From Coleofasciculaceae cyanobacterium (GTDB lineage: Bacteria > Cyanobacteriota > Cyanobacteriia > Cyanobacteriales > Xenococcaceae): 64,000 bases of DNA. Shown here piece by piece: positions 18,048 through 26,849 of the stretch; within the stretch, counting starts at the first letter, position 1; each line of letters starts with the position of its first letter. Under the pieces are notes generated by a model. The model ran no database searches, was not told the origin of the DNA, and was given only the letters and a program-made list of their open reading frames with translations. The translations under genes and the position numbers were made by a program. The DNA lies in NCBI GenBank assembly GCA_036703275.1, contig DATNPK010000025.1, positions 62,001 through 126,000 on the forward strand, in the 5' to 3' direction.

Positions 18048-18356
18048 TGCTTTTAGTGATGGGACTGGGCTTTCAAGCATCTGAATTTACTTCAGATGAC
18101 AGCCCCTTATGTAAGCGACATTTAATTACTAAATTTTACAAAACAATAGTTTGAATTGTAAAATCTATAGCATATTAATGAGTAATAACAATACAACATT
18201 TAGGTCGAAATGTTTAATCTCATTTACAACTACAAATTACAGCCTACAACTAAACAAATAGAACTGATTGAGCATAACCTTAAGGTTTGTAAATCTGTTT
18301 GGAATCACGCTCTTTACGTGCGTAAGCTTTGGTAAAACAGCCGTAGTTGTGAGATT

Positions 18357-18390
18357 AACAATATATTCACTCAAGAGTGAATATATTGTT
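18357..18390. repeat. Perfect 16-bp palindrome at the tnpB frameshift
   Basis: AACAATATATTCACTC (18357-18372) and GAGTGAATATATTGTT (18375-18390) are exact reverse complements separated by AA. It falls exactly where the tnpB reading frame changes, between CEIN and YSLKSEY. Confidence 0.9.
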
Positions 18391-19290
18391 GAACCGTTTG
18401 AATATCCTTCCTATCATACTCAATCTGCTGAATTAACTAAAGCCAAGAAAACAAATGCTTTTCTTAAGTCTGGTAATGCTCAAGCGATGCAGCAAACATT
18501 GCGTAAGTTAGATAGAGCATTTAATGAGATGAAGTCTAAAAAGATGGGCTTCCCTAGATTTAGAAAGAACTTAAAGTCTTTTAATATACTTGGCAGAATA
18601 TCTGTAGATAAAAATTATCTACAGATGCCATTACTTAAATCAATTAAGTTGAGAAAGTCTAGGGATATTCCTGAAGGATTTAAGATTAAACAAGTTCAAA
18701 TCATTAAAAAAGCCAGTGGTTACTATGCCAATGTAATGATTGAATTAGATGTTGATGTTGTTAAACCAATTCCTCACGGTCATGCTGTAGGAATTGATGT
18801 AGGCATTCAAAGTATGATTGCAACTTCTGATGGATTAATACTTCCAAGACCTAAGTTCTTAGATAAAGCACTGCGTAAGATTGAATTACTACAAAGAAGG
18901 CTTAAAAGGAGAACTATAGGCTCTAACAACTGGAAGAAATTACAACATCGAATTGCATTACTACATGAAGCTGTTGCTAATAGAAGAAAAGAATACCATT
19001 TTAAACTTGCTTATAAGCTTTGCCAGAAGGTAGGAATGATATTTGTAGAAGATATTAACTTTGTTGCTTGGAGTAGAGGATTATTCTGTAAGCAATCTCT
19101 GGATATGAGATTAGGACAATTCTTTAATATTTTAGAATATGTCTGTAGCAAAACTGATACCTATTTTGCTAAGGTCAACAAAGATTATACATCTCAAATA
19201 TGCCCTAACTGCGGTACTTACACGGGCAAGAAGACATTAGCACAAAGAGTGCATAAGTGTTCAGAATGTGGATATGAGCAAGATAGAGAT

Positions 19291-20083
19291 GTGCGACCCG
19301 TTTCAGCCTAACTACAATTTGTAGGAACGCTGAGGGGATTAACTAGAACCTAGAAAATACAATAACTCTAGACTCATGTAGGTTAAATTCCTACCGATGA
19401 ATGATACGTTTGAACCCATATCCTATGTGCTCCTAGGTAACATCATAGTGGTGCAGAGCTAGGATAAAAGCAGATAGCTAATAGCCGAAATTGGTAACTC
19501 TGCAAGGAAAGCTGTTTATGTTCAACAAGGTCTAATTAATCGTAAGTCTCGTAACTTGCAAGTAGTGGAACGGCTTATACACTACGCCAAAAGGCAAATA
19601 GAGGTATGTGTTTCTTATGTCTCTTAAGAAAAAAAAAAAGAATATTAAATTGAAAGAGTTAATATTTTATCATCAATAGACCTCTCGGGATACAGATTAG
19701 GAACTAAGAACAACGTGAAATGAGTTTAGGGAACGGGATAACCCCATATTTCTATCAAGACCTTATCTTGATAAACCAGATGTGAAGCGTATGAAATATG
19801 GGAGTAGGATGCTGTAAAAAGCCAATGCTTAACCTGAAATAACAGGTAATGCCTGACAAGGATGGATGTAATGTCTGAGATATGCTGACGTGCAGCCCTG
19901 AGTCTGAGTAGGGAAATAAGTAGTTCTTAATATACCTAATACACCTATCTTTGATAGAGTGTGGGATAAAAAAGGAACAAAATACAAATTACCGAAAAGC
20001 CAGGAGGAGCCGTGTGCGGTGAAAGTCGCAAGCACGGTTTTGAATGGGAGTGTCAGAGAGCGATCTCTGGCTCGACCCCTAAC
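19291..20083 (+). mobile_element. ORF-less group II intron inside tnpB
   Basis: The 5' end GTGCGACCCG matches the GUGYG consensus. Domain V is at 20007-20041: GAGCCGTG pairs with CACGGTTT, with a GAAA tetraloop and the catalytic AGC. Domain VI follows at about 20045-20077, with a CAGAGA-GCGA-TCTCTG stem and a candidate branch A near 20075, eight nt from the 3' end, which reads CCTAAC. The exon junction GAT|GTA restores DRDVAAAQ of TnpB. A candidate EBS1 GTCTCT (19619-19624) can pair with the last six exon bases AGAGAT (19285-19290, one G-U). At 793 bp there is no maturase ORF, so any mobility would need a maturase in trans. The call is very secure; the class is not assigned. Confidence 0.92.
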
Positions 20084-20329
20084 GTAGCAGCAGCTCAAAT
20101 AGTAAGAAATAGAGGATTAGAAATTAGTGCGGTCGGTGCGCCCGTGCTTCAAGTAGCCCTGGAATGGCGTTTGATCGCGGACATTTTTGATGTCTAGAGT
20201 CGAGCCTATAAGGGAATCCCTCGGCTATGCCGAAGGAAGGTTCAAATTTCCATACTACTGTCTGATTGTTTGAACGAGGAACAATCTCAAGCAGGATTAA
20301 GATAATCACTTATTACTCATTACCAAGAA

Positions 20330-21110: not shown

Positions 21111-21616
21111 AGAGAGAGTTGGAACGTAAGCCGGATTCTGTTCTCAAACCAACATAACTTTGATTTGAGGGTAGTTATCTATCTAGGATGTCTGTTGCCA
21201 AACACCTCTTGCGGTTCACCAACGGTCAGGCAATTCCTGTCTTTTCGGGCGCGTTTCTTGGCGCGAGTTTCCCTCGCGGGGTCGCTTCTCCTGTTCCAGA
21301 CGGAGAACCTGACCTAAATCGGGATGGGAAAAAGACCAACCATAACCCCTTCGACCTTGCTCCCTACCAGGGTTTACCGAGCCAGTACCTCTCGATACTG
21401 CTGGTGCGCTCTTACCGCACCTTTGCACCCTTACCAAAACCGTAAGGACAGTTCGTGAACTGCCCTTGCATTTTAAATTGGCGGTATTTTTCTGTGGCAC
21501 TATCCTCGCGATCGCTCGCACTGGGAATTACCCAGTAAGTCTGGTCTTTTGGGAGTCCGGACTTTCCTCAAATCTGCCTCAAAGGACAAACTTGCAACCA
21601 CCTCACCAACTCTCTC
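21111..21616 (-). ncRNA. rnpB: RNase P RNA (type A, cyanobacterial)
   Basis: Read on the minus strand, the RNA starts near 21616 with GAGAGTTGGTGAGG and ends near 21111 with CCAACTCTC, which close helix P1. The conserved core GAGGAAAGTCCGGACTCCC lies at about 21550-21570. GGTAAGGGTGCAAAGGTGCG and GGTAAGAGCGCACC follow, and the 3' conserved CAGAATCCGGCTTACG sits next to P1. The roughly 506-nt length is at the long end for the type. The RNA processes 5' leaders of tRNA precursors with the RnpA protein. Exact ends are inferred from pairing. Confidence 0.95.
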
Positions 21617-25032: not shown

Positions 25033-26427
<1,395 letters not shown>

Positions 26428-26435
26428 CTATAAAC

Positions 26436-26513
26436 AGCTTCCCTACGCTGGTGCTAACCAGTCTCAGGTTCTTAGGGTATATCTCAGCCCAAATCTTGAG
26501 GCACCCCTAGCTA
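26436..26513 (-). promoter_or_regulatory. TPP riboswitch (THI box)
   Basis: Read on the minus strand, the leader holds the conserved TPP aptamer parts in order: AGGGGTGCC, GGCTGAGATATACCC, GAACCTGA and CTGGTTAGCACCAGCGTAGGGAA. It ends about 20 nt before the thiC start codon. That spacing suggests control of translation initiation, because no separate terminator stem with a U-run is visible between aptamer and gene. Confidence 0.96.
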
Positions 26514-26849
26514 CATGCGAATTCTAACACTATTTAAGTCATCGTTTCACCGTGATCGACAAAGTAATCATTTCTTAATTCAAAGCATTATTTCTTAAAT
26601 TTAGGCGTTAACAAAAGCTTAATAAATTTCTTGACCAGTTTGGTTCCTGATTTAGTTATTTTGTACTGTTTTACTCGACTGCTGGCTAATGTATCCAGCA
26701 ATTTTATATTTCTCTCAAACATGATTAATTTTATTGTCGAAATAATCGAGAGTCGGTTTGACAGTTTTGTGCAGCAATTAGTATGATTTGGGCTAATTAA
26801 TTGATCGATAATAGTACGGCTCTAGCTTCAGAATTAATCTATTTTGTAT
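26514..26849. other. Divergent promoter region
   Basis: A 336-bp AT-rich spacer between the thiC riboswitch and the rightward membrane-protein gene. I see no open gene, repeat or RNA in it; promoters for both directions are expected. Confidence 0.4.

Follow-up and report, generated by a model that had tools for sequence, protein, structure and literature searches.

A group II intron lacking a maturase open reading frame (ORF) interrupts a tnpB gene of the IS200/IS605 type in the genome of a Coleofasciculaceae cyanobacterium (GTDB family Xenococcaceae; assembly GCA_036703275.1), within a 64,000-nt stretch of contig DATNPK010000025.1 (positions 62,001 to 126,000 of the forward strand), hereafter the window, whose first nucleotide is position 1. 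The intron occupies 793 nt at 19291-20083 on the forward strand and belongs to an ORF-less class IIB family with eleven copies in this source genome; the family, the intron ends and structure, the fit between exon-binding sequences (EBS) and intron-binding sequences (IBS), and an uninterrupted site in a relative are all directly observed. With a probability of about 0.85, the family is proposed to have undergone EBS-guided spread with a helper acting in trans, the tnpB gene of a decaying IS200/IS605 element being one of the sites occupied.

Intron boundaries, structure and host gene

The identification rests on an Rfam match, the alignment of copies, an empty site and counts of base pairs. The full Intron_gpII model (RF00029) matches 20005-20083 with 51.5 bits (gathering score 40; E 3.3e-7), covering domain V (20007-20040) and domain VI (20046-20078), both on the forward strand and both confirmed by pair counts, with an unpaired A at 20075 in domain VI as the presumed branch point. 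Group II introns characteristically begin with GUGYG and end with AY; the window intron runs from GTGCGACCCG to CCTAAC, and seven other copies, aligned at full length, have matching ends, with GTGCG...AC termini throughout. The ends are also fixed by genome G175, a relative whose homologous tnpB is uninterrupted, so that window position 19290 aligns with position 2169 of its locus L204 and window position 20085 with position 2171. An intron with domains V and VI and a terminal CCTAAC had been recognised in the preliminary description of this DNA, made from the sequence alone, and is borne out at both ends; the absence of a maturase ORF, proposed there too, also holds, the longest stop-to-stop stretch inside the intron being 84 codons, antisense.

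Compensatory changes support the intron structure. The consensus fold of eight copies has 211 predicted pairs, 49 of them with two-sided changes. In domains V and VI, across 15 copies (12 distinct), 98.3% of cells are paired and two-sided changes affect 11 of 25 pairs; none of 500 shuffles reached either the share of paired cells or the count of two-sided changes, and sliding the pairing partners lowered pairing to 36-48%. Folded as a single sequence, the intron has a z score of -2.82, with no equally stable fold among 20 shuffles.

The host gene has a TnpB profile, zinc-ribbon CxxC pairs and the RuvC residues, and matches a solved TnpB. Its 5' exon (18211-19290, forward strand), which extends through the RuvC-III Asp codon and is broken near its start, scores 209.7 bits against the NCBIfam model guided_TnpB (cut-off 100), with the narrower IS200_TnpB model at 180.3 bits falling below its cut-off of 425; the 3' exon, beginning VAAAQIVRNRGL and ending at the stop codon (20084-20197, forward strand), was delimited by exon joining and the empty-site alignment. 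Insertion is in the sense orientation and in phase 0, the joined exons reading ...CSECGYEQDRD/VAAAQIVRNRGL in one frame and giving ...EQDRD/VAAAQ... at the protein junction. The second D of the DRD motif aligns with residue 361 of ISDra2 TnpB (by alignment, the residue being counted by hand), for which the catalytic residues are given as D191/E278/D361 (PMC10097598). The restored QDRD-VAAAQ frame and the placement at the RuvC-III Asp codon, both earlier proposals, thereby stand.

As the intron length is 1 mod 3 and 25 stops lie within it in the exon frame, the C-terminus cannot be encoded from an unspliced message. Splicing of the window intron is itself predicted from these sequence features, and it would not alone restore a full TnpB, because the reading frame is not intact: relative to a 418-aa relative in genome G120, the first part of the 5' exon contains an in-frame stop and a frameshift. 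The gene had been correctly named as tnpB in the preliminary description, which overlooked this damage. An inverted repeat at 18357-18390 (no strand assigned; a reverse-strand self match, C25:80357-80390), in the frameshifted N-terminal part, lies within the stretch where the frame is lost.

Exon recognition and distribution of the copies

Searching the source genome with the intron gave 20 matches, six of them full-length, and counts of 11 5' junctions and 11 3' junctions, hence eleven copies. These lie in the window tnpB; in frame in a PAS/HisKA (histidine-kinase) gene; at a C16 pair of exons; in a second tnpB divided between contigs C108 and C103; nested on contig C34; and at six further sites, where no long ORF was seen across the junction. 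As far as the flanks show, nine of the eleven are outside tnpB. The nested copy (locus L081, 9865-10649, on C34) sits inside domain IV of a sister copy, whose other part is locus L080 at the end of C68, forming a twintron; its target, AAAGAACTAAAAC, and that of the C111 copy, AAAGAAGTAAAAC, which is outside any intron, have 13 nt in common apart from one base. Because copies L007-L016 are partial, the C108-C103 and C34-C68 joins are presumptive.

Three pairings link the window intron to its tnpB site, all elements being on the forward strand. EBS1 (GTCTCT, 19619-19624), in a hairpin loop, pairs 6/6, with one G.U, with IBS1 (AGAGAT, 19285-19290), which consists of the Arg-Asp codons of the DRD motif; EBS2 (CTTGC, 19555-19559), about 60 nt upstream of EBS1, pairs 5/5 with IBS2 (GCAAG, 19278-19282); and EBS3 (C, 19693), near the 3' end of domain I and the sole alignment column to pass a test for pairing with position +1 of the 3' exon, pairs 1/1 with IBS3 (G, 20084), the first base of the tnpB 3' exon. 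Across the family, EBS1 pairing with the copy's own site sums to 48.5 in 10 copies against a shuffled-site mean of 36.84 (P 3e-5), EBS2 pairing sums to 45.5 in 11 copies against 22.26, higher than in all 100,000 shuffles (P 1e-5), and the EBS3 column pairs with exon position +1 in 8/8 copies, seven by Watson-Crick pairing and one by G.U. An EBS3/IBS3 pairing is a feature of class IIB (PMC2882425), and the covariation of EBS1, EBS2 and EBS3 with the exons of each copy shows that the intron is of class IIB and that its targeting sequences vary from copy to copy.

These P values overstate the independence of the copies, which are related and whose EBS registers were set after the alignment had been viewed, and this is one of several points that weigh against EBS-guided spread. 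The C111 and C16 copies misfit their 5' exons at both EBS1 and EBS2; the C15 copy, whose EBS2 fits perfectly, misfits at EBS1 and suits the C64 site (6/6, 5/5) and the C108 site (6/6, 4/5) better than its own; EBS1 of the copy in genome G162 ranks its own site second, the site of another copy being slightly better; the number of further pair types in domains V and VI was equalled by 342 of 500 shuffles; and the RNA likeness to introns that might supply a helper, discussed below, is modest (about 45 bits, in domains II-III), leaving the helper uncertain. At C16 (locus L004), the 5' exon and the response-regulator 3' exon look like parts of different genes, with a Pfam match in the 3' part only, and EBS3 alone fits; this combination suggests exon exchange, or recombination between copies, of the kind described for Thermosynechococcus elongatus (PMC2882425).

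The source genome is placed in the same genus as a genome taken as Chondrocystis sp. NIES-4102 (G198), in which one copy lies antisense in an annotated IS66 transposase. A second G198 copy has a 5' flank in common with genome G019, loci L064 (G198) and L075 (G019) representing the same insertion: 60 nt of 5' flank are identical in the two, and in both the intron lies antisense within a DDE_Tnp_1_6 transposase. Outside the taxonomic family, at most about 250 of the 793 nt are covered among the matches listed, which come from 388 genomes with two candidates scored in each, 206 of the genomes giving some match. At positions 1-600 of locus L067 (G280:C190), a locus cut by the contig start, the end of a different group II intron directly adjoins sequence of this family from nt 227 onwards, where the Chondrocystis copy has an extra stretch; this looks like another nested arrangement.

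The TnpB motif and other tnpB genes as targets

In the preliminary description, the conserved RuvC-III motif was suggested to be a reusable home for the intron in many IS copies, and a search of the same genome with insertion sites listed was set beforehand as the test that could refute it. That search placed other copies in unrelated sites, and comparison of tnpB genes at the DNA level likewise contradicts the suggestion. The gene is common, being present in 27/27 genomes of the taxonomic family, with 28 tnpB-like matches in the source genome, the window's included; in this comparison, the site is covered by 40 other tnpB rows, none of which is interrupted there. The rows (20 from relatives and 20 from the source genome, L235 and L246 being the same gene) were drawn from 47 loci, comprising the best locus from each of 19 genomes, out of 26 others in the family (L204-L222), the 27 other source-genome matches (L223-L249) and L250; among eight loci without a row, L247 and L248 continue uninterrupted when read by eye, and the others stop short or are truncated by the contig.

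It is true that the window EBS1 would suit 21 of the 40 other tnpB sites, since IBS1 is the Arg-Asp codons themselves, and that three tnpB genes of the source genome carry group II introns. The window EBS2, however, suits only 2/40 at 4/5 or better, none of the 40 sites reaches 11 of 12 over the three EBS/IBS pairings, the two other tnpB insertions of the source genome sit at different positions, and nine of the eleven copies lie elsewhere, as described above. The combined EBS1 and EBS2 target pattern occurs nine times in the source genome, and a backward control pattern seven times. The poor fit of EBS2 and of the combined set, with this control-like count, indicates that the DRD codons supply IBS1 by coding chance and are not a family address. 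Recognition of the DRD codons as a home is scarcely credible on this evidence, and site-specific homing was rejected on the 40 uninterrupted rows and the poor fit of the EBS set; the position after the catalytic Asp codon is eye-catching and probably incidental. A pattern scan of contigs for DRD followed by an intron start returned at least 119 stretches, with a zinc-ribbon motif upstream in 0/119, a result uninformative on rarer true cases.

Group II introns have nevertheless entered tnpB more than once. On contig C20, an RT-encoding (reverse transcriptase) intron splits tnpB just before the RuvC-I motif, the halves of the gene matching the intact paralogue L230 over residues 9-184 and 185-375, and on C108/C103, contigs joined presumptively as above, a tnpB with an in-frame stop is split by a copy of the same family as the window intron, the halves joining gaplessly over 139 residues of L230 at 73% identity. 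In genome G035, one RT intron lies clearly inside tnpB (both exons match L232; joined, 60.7% identity over 333 residues), and a second case is weak, with 24% identity and E about 5e-11 for the 3' exon and no better than E 0.001 for the 5' exon. At locus L301 of genome G416, taken as Thermosynechococcus elongatus, the intron lies at the tnpB start, at the second codon if GTG is the start. Six insertion positions have thus been seen, three in the source genome, two in G035 (one weakly matched) and one at the T. elongatus tnpB start, and they differ among the intron-bearing genes.

A survey downstream of 123 introns, tested out of 166 matches (13/31 in the source genome, 22/28 in G416 and 88/107 in the rest) and not including the three tnpB insertions of the source genome, found tnpB within 620 nt in five cases, of which one is antisense and another, in genome G394, is just a C-terminal remnant. 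For the source genome, 3/31 domain V matches lie in tnpB, above its share of the DNA (P 6.6e-4, assuming 1.1 kb for each of 28 tnpB matches, and ignoring survival bias and relatedness). That tnpB might be a preferred, recurrent landing zone for cyanobacterial group II introns, with splicing gating an RNA-guided nuclease and the Asp-codon insertion as one result of retroelements and TnpB being in conflict, is a doubtful proposition on these counts. Two sets of loci were considered as further insertions and rejected. L381/L410 of G394 have tnpB sequence downstream only, no 5' exon being found. At L299 and L302 of G416, the 3' exon begins immediately after DRD, which would suit a further insertion at this motif, but the 5' exon is the start of the ISEL1 tnpB, so that deletion explains them better.

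Elsewhere in the window, Rfam identifies an RNase P RNA (class A; 21111-21613), a TPP riboswitch (26423-26518) and a 6S RNA (63112-63295), all on the reverse strand and ordinary.

Spread of the family and related systems

EBS1, EBS2 and EBS3 vary between copies and in most of them fit the site where the copy lies. The likeliest history is therefore reverse splicing into DNA under the guidance of the EBS, whether by retrohoming or retrotransposition, changes in the EBS having opened new targets to individual copies, of which the tnpB gene of a decaying IS200/IS605 element would be one. Mobility, the helper and the order of events are what we infer here. Splicing and mobility would depend on a reverse transcriptase/maturase acting in trans, its likeliest source being a related RT-encoding intron, for example that on contig C24 or C84. 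Among eleven RT matches in the source genome, these two introns start GTGCGACCCGTTTAG and GTGCGACTCGTTTAG, have the 5' end motif in common with the window intron and resemble it in domains II-III and domain V; by NCBIfam (TIGR04416, 336.3 bits), the ORF of the C24 intron encodes a group II reverse transcriptase/maturase. Both introns are candidate sources of the helper.

Two other histories were weighed. The window copy may be a dead relic, compatible with the intron identification, which arrived with or in a decayed IS and now neither splices nor moves; the stop and frameshift of the window tnpB and the stop in the C108 tnpB speak for it, whereas EBS1, EBS2 and EBS3 of the window copy all fit, its domains V and VI are intact, and eleven copies with one nested indicate mobility at some time, leaving this an unlikely, if still appreciable, prospect. 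It is far less probable that the intron spread passively by transposition of its host IS, in the manner of an IStron: no second DNA copy of tnpB exon 1 was found in the source genome by a self-match search and the intron copies there have no common flanks, against which stand the identical flanks in the DDE transposase of G198 and G019 and two G416 loci resembling an ISEL1 deletion derivative with its intron at two genomic places. These loci, L414 and L415, share 1132 bp in which a group II intron is flanked by the left part of ISEL1 and by its right part, from which most of tnpB is missing; they resemble a non-autonomous IS with a group II intron as cargo, the group II equivalent of an IStron.

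EBS-guided spread of an ORF-less family has its nearest parallel in T. elongatus, for which 17 ORF-less introns among 28, EBS families, twintrons and exon shuffling are described (Mohr et al. 2010, PMC2882425), G416 likewise giving 28 intron matches. Like TeI3 of that organism, an ORF-less, cyanobacterial class IIB intron with EBS-diverged families, twintrons, exon shuffling between copies and insertion in an IS200-family element (PMC2882425), the window family has no maturase ORF, several copies and diverged EBS. Three ORF-less group II introns reported there share a conserved site in ISEL1, an element of the IS200 family (PMC2882425). In G416, three introns follow ...GTGAGGCGTGGA, one being followed by tnpB and two by its C-terminal end, and on our reading of these sequences the ISEL1 site would be the very start of tnpB. 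In contrast to TeI3 family F4, described at one site in a multicopy IS, the window intron interrupts, at the RuvC-III Asp codon, a broken tnpB that has no further DNA copy, and its helper is a candidate, whereas T. elongatus helpers were tested in mobility assays.

Other systems are more distant. RmInt1 in ISRm2011-2 is likewise a group II intron in the transposase-encoding region of an IS, with splicing needed for the protein, but it is a class D intron in an IS630-Tc1 element (PMC4238363), unlike the window intron, which lacks a maturase ORF and interrupts a TnpB gene. IStrons also combine a self-splicing intron with an IS element, but the intron is group I and the whole moves as a unit (Tourasse et al. 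2014, PMC4227781), whereas the window intron is group II and gives no sign of moving with its IS. Trichodesmium has a twintron and ORF-less introns, with 17 group II introns documented as splicing in vivo (Sci Rep 2015, PMC4649490); the window family resembles these in its nested copy and differs in being known from sequence alone. The novelty earlier suggested for a group II intron at this site is thus weakened by the ISEL1 introns, an ORF-less intron nested in an IS200-family element being already known from T. elongatus, and is confined to the exact placement after the RuvC-III Asp codon, which was not found in the accessible parts of open-licence papers; the window case is real and its position probably incidental.

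With its clean, naturally occurring series of ORF-less introns, whose EBS1, EBS2 and EBS3 are matched in most cases, the source genome offers a second cyanobacterial lineage, after T. elongatus, in which retargeting can be tested. Should tnpB prove to be hit more often than chance across many genomes, intron splicing would amount to a switch for RNA-guided nucleases.
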